Below are positions 52,813 through 64,000 of a stretch of DNA of 64,000 nucleotides, piece by piece. The stretch is taken from NCBI GenBank assembly GCA_025054835.1, contig JANWZQ010000190.1, positions 1 to 64,000 of the forward strand. The letters run 5' to 3'. The notes under the pieces are model-generated. The model saw only the letters and a program-made list of their open reading frames with translations, was not told the origin of the DNA and searched no databases. The stretch is from Chthonomonadaceae bacterium. Its GTDB lineage: Bacteria; Armatimonadota; Chthonomonadetes; Chthonomonadales; Chthonomonadaceae. Every line of letters begins with the position of its first letter. Within the stretch, counting starts at the first letter, position 1. The translations under genes and the position numbers were made by a program.

Positions 52813-54387
52813 CTACCGTTCGCTGACCTGCTGTGGCGCACGACCACCGGCCACCACATCGATCGTGTCGCCGTCGCGCACCTGAGCCTGCCCCGTGGTG
52901 ATCACCTGCTCCCCGGGACGCACCCCTTCTACGATCTCGACCATTCCCCCCTGCACCACACCCGTGCGCACACGCCGCTCCTCCACTCTGTTTCCCCGGG
53001 CAACCATGACACGACCGGATCGCCGATCGTAATCGAGTAGCGCATCCCGGGGTACCACCACAGCGTTCGGGCGCGTTGTTAGCCGGATCTCGCCCCGCGC
53101 GAACATCTGCGGGCGGATCAACCGGTCCTGATTCTGGATCGCGATGCGCACTGTAAAGGCACGGGCCGTCGCAGAAGCTACCGGAAAGATCTTTGCGACA
53201 CGCCCCGCAAACGTCCGCCCGGGCAGGGCATCGATGCGAATAGTGACAGGCATACCGACCCGAACCCGGGCATACTGCGTCTCGGAAAGCTGCGCATCGA
53301 AGTAGATCGAGTCCAGATCCACAATGCGCATCACATCGGGCTTCGCCGTGGAGAGAGGCGTTCCCGGCTCCGCCTTGCGCTCGGCCACAACCCCGTGGAT
53401 CGGGCTCACGATGGCCGTGTCGCGCAGAGCCTGCTCGGCCAGTCGCAGAGAGGCCTGCGCCTGCTGCAGGGCCGCCCGCGCCTGTTGCACACCGGCCACA
53501 GCAGAACGTACCCCGGCACGTGCGTTCTCCAGATCCGCCTGCCGCAATTGAACCTGATCCCGACTGGCAACCGCAGCAGCCAGCGCCTCCTTCGCCTGCT
53601 CCACCTGCGCCTGCGCACGGCGACGCTCCTCCTGACGTGCCCCCTCCTTGATCAGACTCAGGGCCTGCACAGCCGCATTGTAGCGTGCGTCTGCCGCATC
53701 GGCAATCGCCTGCGCCTGATCCAGCTGCTGGGCTGAAATCGCCTGCTCGCGGTACAGCGCCTGGTAACGCTTCAGGTCTGCCCGCGCCTTATCCCGATCC
53801 GCACGGGCTGCGGCAACGTTCTCCTCCGCCTGCTGGCGCTCCTGCGGCCGCGCCCCCTCTTCCACAATGGCGGCCTGCTGCTGTGCGGCAACGAGACTCG
53901 CCTCCGCCTGCTTCACCGAAGCCCGGGTCTGCTCATCCGTCAACCGCAGTGTTGTGCGCGCACTCTGCTCCGCCACCCGCGCCTGCTCCAGTCGAGCCTG
54001 CGCCAGCGCCAGGTTGGCCTGCGCCTGATTGACCTGCGCGCGCGCCGCATCCACCTGCGCCTGCAGATCCACCGGATCCTGCTGCGCCACAACCTGACCG
54101 GCGCGCACCACATCCCCCTCACGGAAGTATGCGGCAGCCAGCCGCCCACCCGCCTTGACACCCACCGTCACATCGCGCAGCGCACTCAACGCGCCGGTGA
54201 CCTCCAGTACCTCGGAGACCGGTTGCACACGCGCCGGAGTGACCGCCACCTGTACGGCTGCTACCGACGCTCTGGCCTGCGCGGACCCCGCGCTCGCCGA
54301 TCCACCGCCACGCTGGCATCCGGTCACCCAGACACCTCCTGCCGCCAGCACTAGAAGAACAAACTGCCCTGTTCGCATATTGCTCAT
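52813..54387 (-). CDS. HlyD-family periplasmic adaptor of an efflux pump (lipoprotein)
   Basis: 524 residues. Lipobox WVTGCQRGG, Cys24. EVLEVTGALSALRDVTVGVKAGGRLAAAYFREGDVVRAGQVVAQQD is the biotinyl-like barrel-sandwich domain. A very long hairpin coiled coil follows (about residues 110-320, Ala/Gln/Glu-rich heptads). The second half of the lipoyl domain, IVSPIHGVVAERKAEPGTPL, and a beta-barrel (FAGRVAKIFPVASATARAFTVRIAI) close it. It bridges an inner-membrane transporter to TolC. Last gene of the operon; it overlaps tolC by four bases. No pump gene is in the operon. Confidence 0.93.
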   Translation of the reverse strand: MSNMRTGQFVLLVLAAGGVWVTGCQRGGGSASAGSAQARASVAAVQVAVTPARVQPVSEVLEVTGALSALRDVTVGVKAGGRLAAAYFREGDVVRAGQVVAQQDPVDLQAQVDAARAQVNQAQANLALAQARLEQARVAEQSARTTLRLTDEQTRASVKQAEASLVAAQQQAAIVEEGARPQERQQAEENVAAARADRDKARADLKRYQALYREQAISAQQLDQAQAIADAADARYNAAVQALSLIKEGARQEERRRAQAQVEQAKEALAAAVASRDQVQLRQADLENARAGVRSAVAGVQQARAALQQAQASLRLAEQALRDTAIVSPIHGVVAERKAEPGTPLSTAKPDVMRIVDLDSIYFDAQLSETQYARVRVGMPVTIRIDALPGRTFAGRVAKIFPVASATARAFTVRIAIQNQDRLIRPQMFARGEIRLTTRPNAVVVPRDALLDYDRRSGRVMVARGNRVEERRVRTGVVQGGMVEIVEGVRPGEQVITTGQAQVRDGDTIDVVAGGRAPQQVSER

Positions 54388-56168
54388 GGATTACCACCCC
54401 CGCTGGAATGGCCCAGCACCTTCCCGGAAGGAGGCGCCGGGTACCCCGGCCCGTTATTCACAAACGCGTACCGCCCCACAGCCCGATCGAGCCGCGCGCG
54501 CGCGTTGTTGTAGTCATACAACGCATTGATCTGGTTGGACTGTGCCTGCACGAGCGCCGTCTGCGCGTCACTCAGCTCAATCTGTGGCGAGACCCCGGCC
54601 ACTGCGGTGACCCCGGCCTCGTAGCGCACACGCGCCAGACGGAACGCTTCCTGCGCCTGCGCCAGCGCCTGATTGGCCACCGCAACACGATCGCGTGCCT
54701 GCAGCAGGTTCAGATACGCCTGCCGCACCTCCAGAACAATCTGATCCACCACCGCACGCCGGTTCGTCTCCGCAGTCGCGACATCCGCACGCGCCTGACG
54801 ACTGCGCGCACGGGCCAGACCACCATCGTACAGCGGGATGGTGACCTGCGCCACCGCCTGCCATGTGGTGATGATCGGCGCGAACCCCGCCGTGTCCGGC
54901 GCATAGTTCAGGTTCCACGACAGACCAAATGACGGCAGAACACTGCGCCGCGCCAGCACAATGCCCTTCTTCGCCGCGGCAATGTTGGCGTCCGCCTGCA
55001 TGATCTCCGGCCGCAACGCAAGCGCCTCATCCCGCAACGTCTCAAACAGCTCGTCCCCCGGCAGAGGGTCAGCCGCCACAATCCGGTCCGCCGGCGACAG
55101 CGCCGTCGCATCTGCCGGCGGAGCGCTCTTATCGGGCGTACCCTGCTTGCCCGCAACCGCCAGTTGCAACCCGGAGGGCAACGCGAGCCCGGTAATCGGC
55201 GGCGCCGGGATCGTGCTGCCCGGTGGCGCAACCCCTGGCGGCGTCTCCACCGCCCCCTCCGCCGTGAGCGTGATCGGAGTGTTGATGTCGATCCCCATCG
55301 CGTTATTGAGCGCGGCAAGGCTCAGGCTCAATGTGTTGCGCGCCTGTATCCACTGCTGCTGCGCCTGCGCAATATCGGTCTGCGCCCGGATCACGTCAAA
55401 ACGCGCCACCGTTCCCGCACGCAGCTTCTTATCCGCCTCCTCATAGCGCGCCACCGTGTTGCGCAGGTTCGCCTCCGCTACTTCCACCAGCGCCTGCGCG
55501 CGCAGAGCATCGTAGAAAGCAGTCTTGACATCCAGAACAATCTGATTGCGCACCCGATTGATATCGAGCCGGAGCGCCACCTCCTGAAACCTGGCCTGAT
55601 CGTTGGCAGCACGCAACAATCCGGCCAGATCGATCGGCAACGTCGCCTGCACCCCGATCTGCCGTTGCGAGTCATTGAGCAACGGAATGACCTGCGTCTG
55701 CCCCGGGTTATTAACGTCAGGAAACTCAATGCTGTTGGCCTGATTCAGGCGCAAATACGTGAGCGTGGCCGCCAGCGTCGGATTGAACGCAGAGCGCGTC
55801 TCCAGCGTCCGGCCCTGTGCCCGCAACAGCGCCTCACCGGCCAGCGCCAGCGTGCGATTGGTCGCCAGAGCAATGGCGACCGCATCCTGAATCGTCAACG
55901 GACGCTTGCGCAGAGCAGCCGGCAACGCATCCAGCCCCGGCGAGACACGATCCGGTTTCTCCGGTGAGGGAATACGCAGCGCCGGAGCCGGCAACGGGGC
56001 CTGTGGCCCCACAGGAGGCAGGGCCTGAGGGAGAGGCGTAACCCCCGGGGGCAACGGCAATGGCGTCCCCTGCCCGATCGCCACGGCCGGACAAACGCTC
56101 GCTAGCAGCACTGTTATGGCTGTGATAATTCGCTTCCGGGCGCACACCCGGATCGTTCCATGCGTCAT
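54384..56168 (-). CDS. TolC-family outer-membrane efflux channel
   Basis: 594 residues with a signal peptide (IITAITVLLASVCPAVAIGQG). It has the two TolC repeats: RPLTIQDAVAIALATNRTLALAGEALLRAQGR...FNPTLAATLTYLR, and the later LRPEIMQADANIAAAKKGIVLARRSVLPSFGLSWNLNYAPD. They are separated by a Pro-rich insert of about 70 residues (APPGSTIPAPPITGLALPSG). The periplasmic coiled coils are also clear. The start at 56168 has AGGAG upstream; the 56303 frame is not supported. It overlaps tetR (ATGA) and hlyD (ATGA). Confidence 0.93.
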   Translation of the reverse strand: MTHGTIRVCARKRIITAITVLLASVCPAVAIGQGTPLPLPPGVTPLPQALPPVGPQAPLPAPALRIPSPEKPDRVSPGLDALPAALRKRPLTIQDAVAIALATNRTLALAGEALLRAQGRTLETRSAFNPTLAATLTYLRLNQANSIEFPDVNNPGQTQVIPLLNDSQRQIGVQATLPIDLAGLLRAANDQARFQEVALRLDINRVRNQIVLDVKTAFYDALRAQALVEVAEANLRNTVARYEEADKKLRAGTVARFDVIRAQTDIAQAQQQWIQARNTLSLSLAALNNAMGIDINTPITLTAEGAVETPPGVAPPGSTIPAPPITGLALPSGLQLAVAGKQGTPDKSAPPADATALSPADRIVAADPLPGDELFETLRDEALALRPEIMQADANIAAAKKGIVLARRSVLPSFGLSWNLNYAPDTAGFAPIITTWQAVAQVTIPLYDGGLARARSRQARADVATAETNRRAVVDQIVLEVRQAYLNLLQARDRVAVANQALAQAQEAFRLARVRYEAGVTAVAGVSPQIELSDAQTALVQAQSNQINALYDYNNARARLDRAVGRYAFVNNGPGYPAPPSGKVLGHSSGGGNP

Positions 56169-56869
56169 GGCTCCTTTTCTCCTCTCGATCGCGTGCACAA
56201 CGAGCCCCGGAACTGTGGACACACCCCCTGCCATGCCACCCTGTAAGTCGCGTCGATCACATCGTGCAGGGTCGCATGCGCATCCCCCATGGCCCACCGG
56301 CACAACGCGAGAAAATAAATACCGAACAGAAACTCCGTCAGCTCCTCCGGAGTCAGGTCATTCCGGAGCTGCCCCGCCTCCTGCGCGGCACGTACCGCCT
56401 CACGAAACGTGCCGATCACCTTGGTGCGAATGTTGATATGTGCCTCACGCACCTTCTCATTGGTGAACGTCAACGCAATCAACGTGCGGGTGAGATTACG
56501 GCTCCGCCCGCTTCGATCTGCCAGGCGATGCGCGACCGCCCGCATCTGAAGCCAGAGCGGATGCTCCCCCTCCGCAGACACCTCGGACGCGGCAGCGGCC
56601 AGTATCGCGGGCATCGCCTCTGTGAGCACCTGCACCTGCAACTCAAAGAAGTGCTCAACCACAGCCTCCTTGCAGGGAAAGTAATTGAAAAACGTCCCCT
56701 TGGCCAGATTCGCCGCCTCGGTGATCATCTCCACAGTGACCGCATCGAACCCCTTCTCCGAAAAGAGCTGCATCGCCGCCTCGAACAACCGCTCCCGGGT
56801 CTCATGACGCCGCCGATCGCGACGCGACGGCACCACAACCGCATCCGAAGTCTGCACATCTGCGGACAT
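56165..56869 (-). CDS. TetR/AcrR-family transcriptional regulator of the efflux operon
   Basis: 234 residues. The N-terminal HTH is RRHETRERLFEAAMQLFSEKGFDAVTVEMITEAANLAKGTFFNYFPCKEAVV, the TetR family consensus. The ligand domain is divergent. The start at 56869 has AGGAGGGAGCGAGG upstream; the frame to 56914 runs into the operator palindrome and is not needed. First gene of a fully overlapped tetR-tolC-hlyD operon; a symmetric operator-like site lies 14 bp before the start, so it likely represses itself and the channel. Confidence 0.92.
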   Translation of the reverse strand: MSADVQTSDAVVVPSRRDRRRHETRERLFEAAMQLFSEKGFDAVTVEMITEAANLAKGTFFNYFPCKEAVVEHFFELQVQVLTEAMPAILAAAASEVSAEGEHPLWLQMRAVAHRLADRSGRSRNLTRTLIALTFTNEKVREAHINIRTKVIGTFREAVRAAQEAGQLRNDLTPEELTEFLFGIYFLALCRWAMGDAHATLHDVIDATYRVAWQGVCPQFRGSLCTRSRGEKEP

Positions 56870-57201
56870 CCTCGCTCCCTCCTGACCGACGGTCACAAAA
56901 TGACCCGCAGTCACAACCGACTACGAACAGCTCCCCTACCCGGTTCCCCCGGAATTGACCATATGCCACAGGTCCAGACACACGCAGGGCACCAACAACC
57001 CTGCGAACAGCTGTGACATCTACCGGGAAAGCGCGTCAGACAATACCGGGGATAAGCGGGTTAAAGCAGGAACACAGGCCGAAGACTTCTAAATTCTTTA
57101 CGGAAAAACACGGTACCGATTGTGTGTGGCACACACGGGGTAAGCGGTCGGTACTCCGAAGACACCGCACACACCGTCCCGCAGAACAACAGGAGTGCGC
57201 G
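56870..57201. promoter_or_regulatory. Intergenic region with TetR-type operator palindrome
   Basis: About 330 bp between the divergent tetR operon and the DUF2227 gene. TGACCG-A-CGGTCA at 56883-56895 is a perfect 13-bp palindrome 14 bases before the tetR ATG, overlapping the ribosome site. A TGACC half-site repeats at 56901 and a related AGTCA lies at 56909, so the operator may be composite. No convincing -35/-10 or gene is seen in the rest. Confidence 0.6.
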
Positions 57202-57781: not shown

Positions 57782-58600
57782 ATGCTGTTTGTCCGCACTC
57801 TGCAGAGGGGAACGCTCCCCCTCGTCCTGCTCGCCGCGGTAGCACTGACCGGCACCGAGGCTGATGCCAAGCCGGCCTTCGCAATGAAGGAACGCGTTGA
57901 CTGCCTGTACTGCCACGTACAGCCCGGCGGGCCCCGGAACTTCCGCGGCCTCTACTACGATGCCAACAAGTACTCCTTTGCCAACTTCGACAACGAGTAC
58001 GAGGCGAAGGCCGCCGGAGTGGAGCCGGACAGCAAAGGAGCCGATGCCGTGCCAAAGAACAAAAACTACCCCAACGTCCCCGTGCCAAAAGCCCTGAACT
58101 TCACCCTGAAAAACATCGACGGCAAGCCCGTCAAGCTGGCCCGCTACGCCGGGGACGTCATTCTGGTCGTGAACGTCGCCTCCAGGTGCGGCTACACCCC
58201 CCAGTACGCCGATCTGCAGAAACTCTACGACGAGTACAAAAAGAAGGGCCTCGTCGTGCTCGGCTTCCCCTCCAACGACTTCGGCATGCAGGAACCGGGT
58301 ACCGAGGCCGAGATCAAAGAGTTCTGCACCACAAACTACAAAGTCACCTTCCCGATGTTCTCCAAGATCGCGGTCAAGGGCGATGGACAGGTCCCGTTCT
58401 ACAAGTTCCTGACCAGCAAAGAGACCAACCCGAAGCACGCCGGCGACATCCAGTGGAACTTCGAGAAGTTCCTGATCAACCGCAAGGGCGAAGTCGTCGC
58501 GCGCTTCCCATCGAAAGTCAAGCCAACCGATCCCGAAGTCATCAAGACAGTAGAGAAACTGCTGGCAGAACCCCGCCCCGGAGCCACAGCAACCGAGTAA
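57782..58600 (+). CDS. Secreted glutathione-peroxidase-like protein with N-terminal CxxCH motif
   Basis: 272 residues with a signal peptide (TLPLVLLAAVALTGTEADA). Residues 41-45 are CLYCH, the haem c attachment motif. From about residue 105 it is a thioredoxin-fold glutathione peroxidase: catalytic Cys136 (NVASRCGYTPQY), GFPSNDFGMQEPGT, a resolving-type Cys182 (EFCTTNYKVTFP) and Trp in IQWNFEKFLINRKGEVVARF. It would act on peroxides in the periplasm, probably with thioredoxin-like reductants. The single-haem-like segment is unusual. GGAGG precedes the ATG. A 9-bp hairpin follows. Confidence 0.88.
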   Translation: MLFVRTLQRGTLPLVLLAAVALTGTEADAKPAFAMKERVDCLYCHVQPGGPRNFRGLYYDANKYSFANFDNEYEAKAAGVEPDSKGADAVPKNKNYPNVPVPKALNFTLKNIDGKPVKLARYAGDVILVVNVASRCGYTPQYADLQKLYDEYKKKGLVVLGFPSNDFGMQEPGTEAEIKEFCTTNYKVTFPMFSKIAVKGDGQVPFYKFLTSKETNPKHAGDIQWNFEKFLINRKGEVVARFPSKVKPTDPEVIKTVEKLLAEPRPGATATE

Positions 58601-58692: not shown

Positions 58693-60465
58693 TTACAGAT
58701 CCTCCTGCACCCGCAACCAGACCTCCAGCGTCAGCAACAACCAGAGCTTGACCCCATAGCGTGACCAGACGTCCCCGCGATACTCCAGCCACTGCCGCAC
58801 CGTATCCGAATTCAGGTACGGGCGTGTGCGTGCCCGACGATCCAGCAACAGGGCACGCGCGTAACTGTTCAGCTCACGCCGGAACCACCCCTGTACCGGT
58901 ACCAGCATCCCGCTCTTCGGGCGCGCAAGAATGGCCTGTGGCAGCAGATCCGCCACCGCCGCTTTCAACACCACCTTCTCAGTAGCCCCGGACAGCTTGA
59001 ACGCCGGAGGCACAGCGAAGCTCGCCTCCACAATCCGCGGATCAAACAGTGGCGAATGCCCGACCAGCCCGCAGGCACGCGTCAGATTGTTCACCTTGGT
59101 CAGAATGTGGTCGGCCCCCTTCAGGCGCACGTTGATGTGCATCAGCCGGTTCAGATACGCGGGCATGCGCGGGTTGCTGAAAAAGGGCTCCAGCAGAGCC
59201 GATTGCGGAGGCGCATCGCGCAGGGCACGTTGCACTTCCGGCGTCAACAGCTCCGGCAGATCATCATAACACTTCTGGTAGGAGCGAAAGTAAGCGTCCT
59301 CTTCCGACTGCGTGGCACCGTAGAGCGCGTGCAACAGCATCGGCTGGTTCTTCGGCCCACCAAAACAGGGATCGCCCCCCTCACCATTCAGTACGACAGA
59401 TGTCTCCTGAAACGCCGCCCGCCCCAGCAACAGGTTGGGCGTCGTCAACGGATCACCGATCGGATCATCCAGCAACGCCAGCGTCTCGGGCAGATGCTCC
59501 CGCACCACCTCCGCGCGCAACTCCAGCACATGATGCTCCGTGCCGCAATGGCGCGCCACCAGAGCCGAGAACTCCAGCTCATTGGGATACTCCGGCCCGA
59601 AATGAATGGCAAAGGTGTGCACAGCACCGGGAGCATACCGCGCCGCCAGCGCAGTCACCAGACTGCTGTCCAGCCCCCCGGAAAGATAGACGCCGACCGG
59701 GCCGGACGCAGGCAGGCACTGCTGCACCGCATCCTCCAGCAGCGGACGCAGACATCGCGCGTAAAACGGCAGGGGCGCCTCCGGGTCCCACTCCCCCTGC
59801 ACAGGCTCCCAGTACAGAATACGCCTGTCTCCTGGAAATACATACGCCGTCCCGGGAGCAAGCTCCTGTGCGTCCCGCCACATCGTCTCCTCCCCGGGAA
59901 CAAACGCACAGGAAAGGTAATGACGCAACGCCGTCAACGAGAGCGCACAGGACACCGCAGGCGTGCGCCGCAACACCGACAGACGATCGGCGAACCAGCA
60001 GAAACTGCCCTGACGTGCATGGTACAGCGTACGTGCCCCGACCGCATCCCGCAGCAGAACCAGCTCGCGCTCCGGCTCCCTCCAGATCGCCACGGCAAAC
60101 ATCCCGCGCGCCTGTCGGGCTCCCTCAGCAACCCCGTAGCGCCGCACCAGCTCCGCCAGAATTTCACCGTGCGCACGCGCAGAGCACTGCAGCTGTGCCT
60201 GCAGAGAAGCCACGTTGTAGAGAAGCACATCCCCGCAGACCACCACATGGCCCGTCGTGTCCGTCCAGACCGGAGCCCCTCCAAACGCCACCTCCGCATT
60301 GTGCCACACCGGCTCAACACCCGCATGCCGCAACGCGTGTGCCGGATCCCGGGAGCCGTAAACGCCACACAGGCCAGACGCAACCCGGAAACCCGCCGGG
60401 AGCGCGCACACCCTTCTGCCTCCAGACCACGTCCGCATGGCACGCACCGTCCCCGAAACCATCAC
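58693..60465 (-). CDS. Asparagine-synthetase-like enzyme 1 (degenerate glutaminase half)
   Basis: 590 residues. The C-terminal synthetase domain looks intact: PPi loop SGGLDSS at 262-268, LLDDPIGDPLTTPNLLL, NGEGGDPCFGG, and ILARPKSGMLVPVQGW. It would activate a carboxylate with ATP. The N-terminal Ntn-glutaminase half is degraded: the usual N-terminal Cys2 is not there (Cys33 in SGLCGVYG is the nearest), and the NGEIYN box is replaced by CGDVLLYN; the Asp of the glutamine pocket is also missing. It therefore probably uses free ammonia or another amine. The ATG overlaps the upstream stop (ATGA). It is the last gene of the operon. Confidence 0.88.
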   Translation of the reverse strand: MMVSGTVRAMRTWSGGRRVCALPAGFRVASGLCGVYGSRDPAHALRHAGVEPVWHNAEVAFGGAPVWTDTTGHVVVCGDVLLYNVASLQAQLQCSARAHGEILAELVRRYGVAEGARQARGMFAVAIWREPERELVLLRDAVGARTLYHARQGSFCWFADRLSVLRRTPAVSCALSLTALRHYLSCAFVPGEETMWRDAQELAPGTAYVFPGDRRILYWEPVQGEWDPEAPLPFYARCLRPLLEDAVQQCLPASGPVGVYLSGGLDSSLVTALAARYAPGAVHTFAIHFGPEYPNELEFSALVARHCGTEHHVLELRAEVVREHLPETLALLDDPIGDPLTTPNLLLGRAAFQETSVVLNGEGGDPCFGGPKNQPMLLHALYGATQSEEDAYFRSYQKCYDDLPELLTPEVQRALRDAPPQSALLEPFFSNPRMPAYLNRLMHINVRLKGADHILTKVNNLTRACGLVGHSPLFDPRIVEASFAVPPAFKLSGATEKVVLKAAVADLLPQAILARPKSGMLVPVQGWFRRELNSYARALLLDRRARTRPYLNSDTVRQWLEYRGDVWSRYGVKLWLLLTLEVWLRVQEDL

Positions 60466-61610
60466 CCGAAGCTATCCGTTACCAGCACATCGGCATCCCG
60501 CCGGGAGTCGGTCGTGTCCACCCAGACGTACGGAGCGTCCATCCAGAAGATCACATCGGGCGCCCCGCCCACCTCCTCAACCGTATCGGCACGACCGGCC
60601 TGCGCAAACCCGCGATAAATCGCGCGCATCAGCCGGGCCGGGCGCAACGCAGCCAGCTCCACCATATACCCGCGCTCCAACCAGTCAGCCTCCTGCGGCG
60701 TCAGGAACTCCCGCAGCTCCCCGGGCACCTGACAGGGTGCCTGCTGCACCACGTTCAGGCGCAGGGCCTGCGCGCTCTGCGGGCGCAACCCCAGATCATA
60801 AACCGGAACAGACAGATCGGGAAACCAGTCCGGACCACGCAACTGCCGGGCCAGACGCAACCCCGGCACAGAAGCGTCGTGCAGCGCGAACACCTTCAAC
60901 TGCGGATTGCGCCGGAGCATCTGCCGCACCGTGTCCAGCCGCCCGAAAGGATAACCATCGATGCTGAGAATCGCACAGTTGTTCTCGAAATGAAAGTTAT
61001 TGGCCACCAGCATGGCCGCCATGTCTGCGTCCTGCACCACCAGCGCGCGATCAAAACTGTAGGCCGTCACGTCCGGGGCGATCCCGGCCTCCACGGGAGC
61101 CGCGTTCCGATCAGGCGGCACAAGCAGCCTCTCCGGCCGCCCGTGCACAGACACCCACACGCTCAGATACCTGCGCTGAAATTCGTCCCACGTGAGATGC
61201 ACCGCATGGGTCTGCTCTGCCCGCGCACGCTGGTTGCGCCACACACCGTACGCGGCGCCACCGCCCCCGAGCACCAGCGGGATCACCCCGAAAGGCCCCA
61301 CAAAAAACAACGGAACCGCAACGGCAATCCCCCCGGTGATCGACAGAAAGGTCACCCACCCCCACGGATCACGCCAGTACGCGCGATGAACCAGCCGGCG
61401 ATCCCACTCATAGAACAACTGCCGCTCCGTGAAGTACAACCGGTCGTTCCCGGAGAGATCCCGCAGCACCTTCTGAAACAGCCCATCGGTAATCCCGGGG
61501 GTGTCGGGATTTCTGGGCTCAAACGCGAAAGGATGCAGACAGTGTGCGCAACGCCTGGAGAACTGACGCGCCCGATACGGCGTGTCCCCACCACAATGAA
61601 TGCACTTCAC
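60462..61610 (-). CDS. Zinc-ribbon membrane protein with a TOPRIM-like segment
   Basis: 382 residues from a GTG start whose GTGA overlaps the upstream stop; GGAGGAGG lies upstream. A zinc ribbon (Cys 3, 6, 21, 24) opens it. Helices at about 82-125 cross the membrane twice (WGWVTFLSITGGIAVAVPLFFVG, IPLVLGGGGAAYGVW). The C-terminal part has FENNCAILSIDGYPFGRL and LKVFALHDASVPGLRLARQLRG, reminiscent of a TOPRIM or related Rossmann-like domain, which I cannot confirm. It lies between the two asparagine-synthetase-like genes and is coupled to both, so it probably works with them at the membrane. No family is recognised. Confidence 0.75.
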   Translation of the reverse strand: MKCIHCGGDTPYRARQFSRRCAHCLHPFAFEPRNPDTPGITDGLFQKVLRDLSGNDRLYFTERQLFYEWDRRLVHRAYWRDPWGWVTFLSITGGIAVAVPLFFVGPFGVIPLVLGGGGAAYGVWRNQRARAEQTHAVHLTWDEFQRRYLSVWVSVHGRPERLLVPPDRNAAPVEAGIAPDVTAYSFDRALVVQDADMAAMLVANNFHFENNCAILSIDGYPFGRLDTVRQMLRRNPQLKVFALHDASVPGLRLARQLRGPDWFPDLSVPVYDLGLRPQSAQALRLNVVQQAPCQVPGELREFLTPQEADWLERGYMVELAALRPARLMRAIYRGFAQAGRADTVEEVGGAPDVIFWMDAPYVWVDTTDSRRDADVLVTDSFG

Positions 61611-63250
61611 GCGACCGCCTCCTCCCACCCCGTCCTGTGCAGGCCATGCGCCTCACGATAAACAGCCAGCATGACCAGCAACCAGAGCTTCTCACCCTGC
61701 CGGCGTTGCCGGAACTCAGCAGCCTCCTCGGTCCCACGGATCAGGCCCGTCACATACTCCGGATCGAACCACCCGTCACGCTTCAGACGGCGCGGCGCAA
61801 GCAGACCCGCAACAGTCCGCCGCAGGCCCCTCCGGCACCACTCCGTCGTCGGAACCCCCATCCCGCGCTTCTCTCGCCAGACGATCCCGGCAGGCAGATA
61901 AGCCTCCGCCACACGCTTCAGCAGATACTTCTCACAGGCCCCCTGCAGAAACCACTCCGACGGCACCCCGAAGCTCCACTGAGCCAGAACCGGATCAAAG
62001 AACGGGGAGCGCACCTGCAACCCGTGCGCCTCCGCCAGCTGCCGGGCCCGTGGCGCAATGTTCTGCGCCCCCTTGTGAGCCAGATTGGCCGCCCGCAGGC
62101 GATGCAACAACGTGCGAAACCCCTCACGCTCCAGCGCATGTCGGACCCACGCACCCGCATCCACCCGGCGCAGCACGTCCCGAGCCCGTGGGGCATACAG
62201 GCGATCCGTCAACCCGTAGAAGCGATGAAACGTCGCCAGATAAGCGGCCTCCCGCCCGCAACCGGCACCCGCGTAGAGCTCGGCAGCCACCATCGGCTTG
62301 TTGTTCCACCCGCCGAACAACTGATCGCCCCCCTCCCCGTTGAACACCACCCCGCTCACCTGCGCGGCAGCACGCCCCAGCAGATACAGCGGCACCGTCA
62401 CACCGTCCCCGAACGGTTGCTCCATGGCCGCCGCCGTCGCCCGCAACGCCCCCTGCACCTGCCGTTCCCCGCAGGGCACCACATGCAGAGGCCGACCCAG
62501 ATGCGCCGCCACCTGCCGCGCATAACCGAGCTCCCCGTTGTACGGCGGGCCAAAATCCAGCGTGAACAGATGCACACGCACCCCCGCTTCCGCCAGCAAC
62601 GCAGCGATCAGACTGCTGTCCAGACCTCCGGAGAGAAAAACGCTCGCCTCACACAGGTCGCTCGCCTGCTCCTGCACGCTCTGCCGGAGCAGAGCACGCA
62701 ACTGCGACACCGCGGCCTCCTGATCGAACACCCCGACCGGCTGCTCCCGCCACTCCACCGTCTCCATCAGAGTGCAGCGTCCCCGGGCATCCACCTGCAG
62801 GCAACCCCCTGCCGGCACAACACCAGCGTCACAGAGCACGGAGCGTGGCGCAGGCACGTAGGAAAAGCAGAGATAACCGTGCAGGCTGATCGGATCCAGA
62901 CGGGCCTCATGATCCAGAAGACGGCGCAGGACCCGCAGGTCGGAGGCAAACCAGAACGCACCCTCACGGCGCAACGTGTAGAGCGTGTGGATCCCGAACG
63001 GATCCACACGCAGAGACAGCAGGCAGGTAGCCGGATCGTAGCGCACGCAACACCCCGCGCGCGCCACCGCGCCCACAGAAGCCTCCACGACCCCATCGGC
63101 CATCACCTGCAGGACCGCGCGCGCACCGCCCGTGTTCGCGACCCCGATCGTGAACGCCGCGCCCGAATGCACGCAGGCGCCAGCACCCAGAAGCGCGCGC
63201 AGCGCCTGCTCCGCAACCGGACCCATGCCCCCTGCCAGCAATCCCATCAC
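61607..63250 (-). CDS. Asparagine-synthetase-like enzyme 2 (N-terminal glutaminase nearly lost)
   Basis: 547 residues. The synthetase half is intact: SGGLDSS at 207-213, MEQPFGDGVTVPLYLLGRAA, NGEGGDQLFGGWNNKP, and IVWREKRGMGVPTTEWCRRGL. The N-terminus is MMGLLAGGMGPVAEQAL with no catalytic Cys and only a late remnant of the glutaminase half (RVDPFGIHTLYTL...WFASDLRVLRRLL). It starts at GTG (63250) overlapping the stop of the upstream gene; the ATG at 63247 is an equal option. With its paralogue it may form a heteromer, as the two share layout and operon. Confidence 0.88.
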   Translation of the reverse strand: MMGLLAGGMGPVAEQALRALLGAGACVHSGAAFTIGVANTGGARAVLQVMADGVVEASVGAVARAGCCVRYDPATCLLSLRVDPFGIHTLYTLRREGAFWFASDLRVLRRLLDHEARLDPISLHGYLCFSYVPAPRSVLCDAGVVPAGGCLQVDARGRCTLMETVEWREQPVGVFDQEAAVSQLRALLRQSVQEQASDLCEASVFLSGGLDSSLIAALLAEAGVRVHLFTLDFGPPYNGELGYARQVAAHLGRPLHVVPCGERQVQGALRATAAAMEQPFGDGVTVPLYLLGRAAAQVSGVVFNGEGGDQLFGGWNNKPMVAAELYAGAGCGREAAYLATFHRFYGLTDRLYAPRARDVLRRVDAGAWVRHALEREGFRTLLHRLRAANLAHKGAQNIAPRARQLAEAHGLQVRSPFFDPVLAQWSFGVPSEWFLQGACEKYLLKRVAEAYLPAGIVWREKRGMGVPTTEWCRRGLRRTVAGLLAPRRLKRDGWFDPEYVTGLIRGTEEAAEFRQRRQGEKLWLLVMLAVYREAHGLHRTGWEEAVA

Positions 63251-64000
63251 TCGAATGCCAGACGGTCGATGATCACCTCACCGCGCGCACTCACGTCGTT
63301 AACAAAGTCCCCGGTCTTGATCGACAGGCGCTCCACCCGCCCCGGCTTGCGGTACTCCTGCCTGCGGAAACGGTCGTCAACCCGTGCGCGGGTCAGACGC
63401 TCCAGCTGATCCAGAGGCAAACGGACCTCCTGCGCCTGCGGCGTGACCGGGATCAGGGCCGAACGCCACCGCTCCAGCGGCCCATTCTCCAGATAGAGGC
63501 GCACATAGGGCAGACCGGAACCGCGCACCCGGAATCGCACGGAGCGGTACGCCCCCAGATCCGGCACCTGATAGGTATCGGCGTTGGCAAAATAGGTGCC
63601 CTTGCCATCCGGAGCGAACCGGTCCACCCGGAGGATCACCGCGCTATCTTTCACGGTCACAGAAGCGCGCGTCTCCCGGTTGAACTGCCCGACCCACCCC
63701 TCCTGCGCATGGAGCTGGTACGGGGCCGGGCGTGTCACCGGTCGATCCAGGGTGCGCACCCCCGCCAGGGTGATGCCGAACAGAGCCAGCACTCCCGTCG
63801 CAGCCAGCAGGCCATTGCGCCACCGACGCCTGCGGCGTACCTGCTCCACCCGCCGCGCATGCACCTCGGCGGCAGCACGGTGCAGATACTCCTCGGGGAG
63901 CCCGACCTCCTCGGCAGCCCGTATGGCCGCCTGCCGTTCCTGCGCCTCGCCCTGCCTCTCCAGATCGCGCTGATACATCTCGGATGCAACACGCACGACC
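63247..64000 (-). CDS. Membrane-anchored protein with a jellyroll-like extracytoplasmic domain (may be partial)
   Basis: About 249 residues visible; the frame is open to the window edge, so the true start may lie outside (GTG 63996 is the last start here). An N-terminal helical, charged segment (EMYQRDLERQGEAQERQAAIRAAEEVGLPEEYLHRAAAEV) precedes a membrane helix (GLLAATGVLALFGITLAGV), then a beta-rich domain (SVTVKDSAVILRVDRFAPDGKGTYFANADTYQVPDLGAYRSVRFRVRG) that resembles a carbohydrate-binding jellyroll. Its stop overlaps the second asparagine-synthetase-like gene (GTGA), so it heads or belongs to that operon. Function unknown. Confidence 0.7.
   Translation of the reverse strand, partial: VVRVASEMYQRDLERQGEAQERQAAIRAAEEVGLPEEYLHRAAAEVHARRVEQVRRRRRWRNGLLAATGVLALFGITLAGVRTLDRPVTRPAPYQLHAQEGWVGQFNRETRASVTVKDSAVILRVDRFAPDGKGTYFANADTYQVPDLGAYRSVRFRVRGSGLPYVRLYLENGPLERWRSALIPVTPQAQEVRLPLDQLERLTRARVDDRFRRQEYRKPGRVERLSIKTGDFVNDVSARGEVIIDRLAFE

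Follow-up and report, generated by a model that had tools for sequence, protein, structure and literature searches.

What do two enzymes related to asparagine synthetase do in an operon that otherwise encodes membrane proteins? The question is raised by four genes, here called g1, E1, Z and E2, on contig JANWZQ010000190.1 of a Chthonomonadaceae bacterium (phylum Armatimonadota; assembly GCA_025054835.1). Positions 1 to 64,000 of this contig, the whole stretch of DNA analysed, are referred to as the window. E1 and E2 are AsnB-like ATP-pyrophosphatases, g1 is a membrane protein and Z is a membrane protein with a zinc ribbon. The cassette is kept across at least five phyla and its core, Z with E2, co-occurs almost perfectly, so it must do one defined job. 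A sequence-only reading of the window had proposed a dedicated, recurring and undescribed system, which our analysis bears out, although its account of chemistry and substrate holds only in part, and it missed the Phe-Gly tip of Z, a LysA-like gene and a Toprim-like domain.

All four open reading frames (ORFs) lie in a row on the minus strand where that reading had placed them. The operon spans 58693 to 64041 and thus extends 41 bases beyond the window. As also described earlier, the genes are coupled, each of the three junctions being a 4-base GTGA overlap (g1/E1 63247-63250, E1/Z 61607-61610, Z/E2 60462-60465). We place the start of Z at the GTG at 61610 (VKCIHC...) and not at the longer ORF start at 61628, because homologues agree with the former. 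The features are as follows.

63247..64000 in the window, with the start at contig position 64041, minus strand: g1, 264 amino acids, a single-pass membrane protein with a probable jellyroll resembling carbohydrate-binding modules (CBMs) and CIA30
61607..63250, minus strand: E1, an AsnB-like ATP-pyrophosphatase of 547 amino acids, with a glutamine amidotransferase (GATase) remnant lacking the Cys nucleophile, and signature GEGGDQLFGGWNNKP
60462..61610, minus strand: Z, with a zinc ribbon (four Cys), a two-helix membrane hairpin, a degenerate Toprim domain like that of Topo VI A and a disordered tail
60462..60476, minus strand: DSFG codons and stop of Z, the stop overlapping the GTG start of E2
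58693..60465, minus strand: E2, an AsnB-like ATP-pyrophosphatase of 590 amino acids, with a degenerate GATase domain and signature GEGGDPCFGGPKNQPM, the obligate partner of Z

The C-terminal tip of Z

Phe-Gly is the exact C-terminus in 91 of 94 Z homologues of at least 230 amino acids, a set collected without regard to the tail. The end is usually [E/D/Q]-S-F-G, and Z of the window ends DSFG-COOH. The three exceptions are a tandem copy, a fragment and a copy with an altered end. The Phe-Gly end recurs in eight of eight loci added subsequently, of which five are divergent. Tandem copies of Z, even those without the zinc ribbon, mostly retain the tail. The conservation of the tip does not arise from an overlapping reading frame, because in Cyanobacteria the E2 gene lies convergent on the other strand.

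The observed tips (ESFG, DSFG, QSFG, GGFG, DDFG, SDFG and FSFG) have no side-chain carboxylate at a fixed place, and therefore the C-terminal carboxylate is the only one common to all Z proteins. Preceding the tip is a stretch of 22 to 62 residues that is variable in sequence, rich in Asp, Gly, Ser and Tyr, and predicted to be disordered. Lysine accounts for 0.1% of tail residues versus 4.6% of the body, in a composition count that used sequences pre-selected for Phe-Gly ends; the count of 91 in 94 is unaffected by this selection. Of the targets suggested by the sequence-only reading, an envelope polymer or a peptide, the invariant C-terminus points to a peptide, namely the tail of the enzymes' partner Z itself. 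Internal repeats of the tip, such as occur in multi-core precursors, were considered and dropped, since a DSFG copy is present in one locus (L134) only.

Distribution of the cassette

Searching genome contigs with an alignment of Z proteins yielded 146 relatives, and 80 loci were kept. These belong to Cyanobacteria (the majority), Armatimonadota, Acidobacteriota (Blastocatellia), Planctomycetota and Betaproteobacteria. Z homologues are approximately 30-40% identical to Z of the window. The sequence-only reading had regarded joint recurrence of the gene families across phyla as support and restriction to one genome as refutation; the cassette recurs across phyla, and the operon is found well outside the Armatimonadota. 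In other Armatimonadota, Planctomycetota and Betaproteobacteria the gene order is g1-E1-Z-E2 or E1-Z-E2, with E1, Z and E2 co-directional. In Cyanobacteria and Blastocatellia it is g1-E1-LysA-like-Z, with E2 convergent on the other strand. No other neighbouring family recurs beside the cassette in more than 13 of 82 loci.

Close to home the distribution is patchy. Among 60 close relatives Z is present only in the window genome, and elsewhere in the phylum it occurs in four species of one genus, which belongs to another family, and in one further genome. Where contigs reach far enough, the four-species genus keeps the full g1-E1-Z-E2 operon and the further genome has Z-E2 alone.

The association of Z with E2 is evident in an evenly drawn sample of 146 genomes of the cyanobacterial phylum, in which 18 have both genes, one has Z alone, three have E2 alone and 124 have neither (Fisher p ~5e-19, not corrected for relatedness). 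The genome with Z alone has a decayed E1/LysA-like locus, and in one of the three with E2 alone the E2 gene is broken by a stop. In all 19 genomes where E2 was not found near Z, it is located elsewhere in the genome. Z and E2 occur without a recognisable E1 in four genomes (G251, G302, G308 and G336), and therefore Z with E2 is the minimal core. The two enzymes had been described as a coupled pair, which is apt for the window operon, where both are present, but the pairing is not strict, as E1 is dispensable in a few genomes.

Remnants of the cassette are also seen. Another Armatimonadota genome contains, without Z, a frame-broken E2 remnant that is 69% identical at its end (L164, G076:C86, 7872-8515), an example of decay of the cassette. 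A cyanobacterial-phylum genome has a short E2 relic next to a 44-residue relic of Z (L142, G419:C1:1660000-1672000), corresponding to a lost cassette. In Okeania sp. (L113, 11405-16542), broken and truncated copies of Z are arrayed between Z and E2; Z has been repeatedly duplicated and has decayed there while E2 stays single at this locus.

The enzymes E1 and E2

Both enzymes match the Pfam family Asn_synthase (PF00733) with E-values of 1.1e-73 and 1.8e-63 (249 and 216 bits, versus a cut-off of 21). The ATP-pyrophosphatase motifs that had been noted earlier are indeed present in both, as SGGLDSS, GEGGD and a late R-x-K. Across E1 and E2 homologues, the PP-loop, the glutamate of GEGGD and the late lysine are kept at at least 95%. 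Because of their superfamily and these retained motifs, E1 and E2 are expected to activate a carboxylate. The earlier proposal of an amide-forming or adenylating activity fits the conserved core, and such an activity is predicted from it.

The two enzymes form separate clades (SH-aLRT, the Shimodaira-Hasegawa-like approximate likelihood ratio test, 98 and 98), apart from other sampled AsnB-like proteins, and each clade spans phyla in much the same order. Each also has a fixed signature, GEGGDQLFAGWTNKP in E1 and GEGGDPCFGGPKNQPM in E2, at a position where ordinary members have GEG(G/S)DE. Their closest solved relatives are a hydroxyamidotransferase (7ylz, the nearest chain), AsnB, CarA and beta-lactam synthetase. 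With the model of asparagine synthetase B (TIGR01536), E2 scores 221.1 and E1 168.1 bits, both below the curated cut-off of 267.1.

The sequence-only reading considered the glutaminase lost. It is functionally dead, but the N-terminal GATase-type domain can still be recognised in degenerate form (PF13537 in E2, 51.5 bits). None of 122 proteins has an N-terminal MCG, an RGPD or an NGE motif, and a GATase-like start is seen in 0 of 70 E1 and 0 of 52 E2, one chance VCA in E2 of the window aside. In Armatimonadota relatives, E1 is 437-439 amino acids long and the GATase-like domain is wholly absent. We considered whether the Cys of 'GLCGVYG' in the window's E2 could be a functional N-terminal residue and rejected this, because a CTG codon precedes it and the other glutaminase motifs are absent. 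Models of anti-phage defence systems (PADLOC) gave only a weak QueC match of E1, and with no match of note we dropped a defence-system reading.

Two other AsnB-like loci are of related interest. The window genome has a second tandem AsnB-like pair on a different contig (G000:C175:6883-11573; 658 and 639 amino acids, full length). An AsnB-like protein with an intact MCGI...RGPD glutaminase (L165, 6178-7995, genome G172) is among the closest non-cassette relatives of E2, and is possibly a picture of the E2 ancestor.

Z, g1 and a LysA-like protein

The four Cys of the Z zinc ribbon are invariant or nearly so. In an AlphaFold model (54 sequences; predicted local distance difference test score, pLDDT, 83.6; predicted template modelling score 0.83), the ribbon of Z is followed by the two membrane helices of the hairpin (88-110, 112-139) and by an alpha/beta domain, and the chain is disordered from approximately residue 350 onwards. 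Basic residues flank the hairpin on both sides, which suggests that both soluble parts should be cytoplasmic. The alpha/beta domain resembles the Toprim domain of topoisomerase VI A, both in sequence (PF21180, just under cut-off) and in fold (best PDB matches 9o7o, 9o0g and 1d3y; E ~3e-3 to 5e-3, probability 1.0). The folded domain is conserved and contains invariant His, Asn and Tyr residues. In its Toprim DxD motif, D251 is Asp in 41 of 54 sequences and the second Asp is kept in one of 54. Because this second Asp is lost, Z should not be a nuclease, and we rejected that role. Z belongs to no Pfam or NCBIfam family at cut-off.

The g1 protein has a helical cytoplasmic N-terminus, a transmembrane segment at approximately 76-96 and an extracytoplasmic domain. 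Its earlier description as jellyroll-like is supported by fold matches of a predicted structure (pLDDT only 65.7) to CBM11/CBM4 and NDUFAF1, and the outer domain of Armatimonadota g1 proteins, in a model of moderate confidence, appears to be a jellyroll nearest to CBMs and NDUFAF1/CIA30. Cyanobacterial g1 proteins have the same general plan and a different outer domain, and are putative homologues of the Armatimonadota proteins, as judged from position and plan. There is also a weak match of g1 to an anti-sigma factor.

The fifth gene, absent from the window operon, encodes a protein of the LysA fold family (PF02784/PF00278) that scores 235.4 bits versus a curated LysA cut-off of 297.9. The site of the lysine that binds pyridoxal phosphate (PLP), YAxKAN in LysA, is replaced by FASVTNGN or YA[VI]VCN. 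The motif F.FA[SCT]VTN.[NS] is present in 66 of 69 LysA-like proteins (three were not scored), and YA[VI]VCN in both divergent members. Elsewhere in the window genome no LysA-like pseudoenzyme match is as strong as the cassette members; the single weaker match (134 bits) was rejected as a hidden pseudoenzyme on its score, which is like that of the ordinary LysA of other genomes. An E1/LysA-like fusion in genome G421 (L140) was not used as evidence of interaction, because both proteins are truncated at the joint, E1 at its end and the LysA-like protein at its start; this looks like a deletion in a decaying copy.

Possible functions

Our preferred interpretation, which we hold tentatively and at somewhat under an even chance, is a conserved, patchily distributed system for modifying a protein tail: E2, together with E1, would adenylate the C-terminal glycine of Z at its carboxylate and form an amide at this site. 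Z would be anchored on the cytoplasmic side of the membrane through its two-helix hairpin, presenting a flexible, nearly lysine-free tail that ends in an acidic residue or Gln followed by Ser-Phe-Gly. E2 would bind the tip, adenylate the alpha-carboxylate of the terminal glycine with ATP by AsnB-type chemistry, with release of pyrophosphate, and transfer the activated glycine to an amine. With no glutaminase left, this amine would not be ammonia released from glutamine on the spot; an amino acid or a diamine is the more likely choice, free ammonia the less likely one. Where E1 is present, it could carry out a second reaction of this kind. In Cyanobacteria and Acidobacteriota, the LysA-like protein, which is unable to form the usual PLP aldimine, might supply or bind an amino-acid-like substrate. 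The complex could be coupled to the outside by g1. What we infer is that the tail is the substrate and its glycine carboxylate the site, which amine is used, and what E1, the LysA-like protein and g1 contribute. The C-terminus is favoured as the site because it offers the only fixed carboxylate in every Z and because the obligate partner of E2 is Z and none of E1, g1 and the LysA-like protein.

Several points weigh against tail modification. The modification would follow by inference, and the terminal carboxylate is proposed as its site from conservation only. A docking motif, too, would be expected to have an invariant C-terminal tip. The N-terminal domain of E2 is degenerate but still of full length, and the conserved folded domain of Z, with its invariant His, Asn and Tyr, has no role in the model.

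The main rival is nearly as good, if itself rather doubtful: Z may be a membrane scaffold or sensor whose acidic tail and Phe-Gly tip recruit E2, and E1, to another substrate. A disordered acidic tail whose C-terminal tip is hydrophobic and conserved, such as that of SSB, is a common docking device, and the possession by Z of its own conserved folded domain is consistent with such a role. The amides might then be formed on, for example, a lipid-linked or envelope glycan marked by the CBM-like outer domain of g1. Consistent with this are the carbohydrate-binding matches of that domain and the exosortase-A/exopolysaccharide (EPS) amidotransferase model (TIGR03108), which is the best or second-best NCBIfam match of E1 and E2, although their 204.4 and 178.5 bits are far below the cut-off of 816.9. 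However, no glycan genes recur beside the cassette in 80 loci, the outer domain of g1 differs in Cyanobacteria, and both g1 and E1 are absent where Z-E2 stands alone. Moreover, an absolutely invariant terminal glycine is seldom required of a docking motif.

A sensor or regulatory complex seems unlikely. In this reading the degenerate Toprim domain, the LysA-like protein and both synthetase-like enzymes would all have turned into ligand-binding units that signal the level of an amino acid or nucleotide across the membrane, as is suggested by the loss of the PLP lysine, of the Toprim DxD and of the glutaminase residues, and by the weak anti-sigma-factor match of g1. The preservation of the PP-loop, the GEGGD glutamate and the late lysine in E1 and E2 is unexpected for dead enzymes. 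It is very improbable that genes for ordinary asparagine or amide biosynthesis, a lasso-type ribosomally synthesized and post-translationally modified peptide (RiPP) or exosortase-A polysaccharides adjoin here by chance: E1 and E2 belong to the Asn_synthase superfamily and their best NCBIfam matches are of these kinds, but every curated equivalog cut-off is missed, none of the recurring neighbour families (clustered from ORFs of at least 70 amino acids) is a precursor, a leader peptidase, an exosortase or an EPS protein, the E1 and E2 clades stand apart from other sampled AsnB-like proteins, and Z fits no family at cut-off.

If the ligases act on the terminus of Z, the cassette would be a case of protein C-terminal activation built on asparagine synthetase, and not on enzymes of the classes called E1-like and ATP-grasp. 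If the tip serves only for docking, the cassette would still specify an undescribed membrane-tethered amide-forming complex. The invariant tip makes the system directly testable with peptides and mass spectrometry, and many cultivated Cyanobacteria carry it.

Comparison with known systems

The enzyme superfamily is known; for the assembly, for the Z family and for the invariant tip we could find no counterpart among known systems. No description of such a cassette was found in the open-access literature, a search that did not cover subscription papers and preprints. The cassette may be classed, with reservations, as a protein-conjugation or carrier system in which an AsnB-family ligase activates the C-terminal glycine of Z and joins it to an amine or amino acid, assisted by a protein that was once a LysA; an alternative class, by enzyme chemistry alone, is an AsnB-type peptide amide ligase.

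LysW, the amino-group carrier of lysine and arginine biosynthesis, combines a zinc ribbon with a conserved C-terminal tip and carries an amino acid in amide linkage. Z shares the ribbon and the conserved tip, and part of the cassette lineages have a LysA-type partner. However, Z is a membrane protein with a Toprim domain, the cassette ligase is AsnB-like whereas that of LysW is an ATP-grasp enzyme, and the LysW model does not match Z.

The beta-lactam and carbapenam synthetases (BLS and CarA) lack glutaminase activity. Together with the hydroxyamidotransferase 7ylz, they are AsnB descendants with the same core motifs as E1 and E2, but they use small-molecule substrates in another genomic context, and the similarity is low (E 8e-29 at best).

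McjC of the lasso peptides is an AsnB-like enzyme without a glutaminase that acts on a peptide (PMC4979651). Lasso cyclases (McjC, LasC; NF033535, NF033561) thus resemble E1 and E2 in having an AsnB-fold ATP-pyrophosphatase and no working glutaminase, and the peptide carboxylate on which they act (PMC4979651) would be a further shared feature. In contrast, the cassette has two paralogues, no short precursor and no leader peptidase, and its presumed substrate is the C-terminus of a membrane protein of 340-490 amino acids. Scores with the cyclase models are 95.5 and 54.8 bits versus 525 (NF033535) and 91.4 and 75.1 versus 300 (NF033561). No short-precursor or leader-processing family recurs in the 82 neighbourhoods, where clustering left out ORFs of fewer than 70 amino acids.

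The exosortase-A/PEP-CTERM system likewise has an AsnB-like enzyme (amidotransferase 1, TIGR03108) with a LysA-fold companion, the PLP-dependent decarboxylase TIGR03099. The LysA-like protein of the cassette, in contrast, has lost the PLP lysine, scores 105 bits versus a cut-off of 478 for TIGR03099, and has no recurring exosortase or EPS genes nearby. Finally, the soluble domain of Z shares the fold and sequence pattern of the Toprim domain of Topo VI A/Spo11 (PF21180), but Z is membrane-anchored, matches the Toprim part only and lacks the second Asp of DxD.

Genes flanking the operon

The sequence-only reading had taken a known polysaccharide or RiPP cluster in the upstream DNA, past position 64000, as refuting its proposal. 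Upstream of the g1 start at 64041 no such cluster is present; the neighbours there are ordinary ones, namely ispG and the genes for a quinone oxidoreductase and a TauE-like protein. On the other side, an ordinary-looking RND-type efflux set (TetR-like regulator, TolC-like outer membrane protein, HlyD-like adaptor) occupies window positions 52813-56914 on the minus strand. Convergent to E2, on the plus strand at 57782-58600, is a gene for a glutathione-peroxidase-like protein with an N-terminal extension bearing CxxC.

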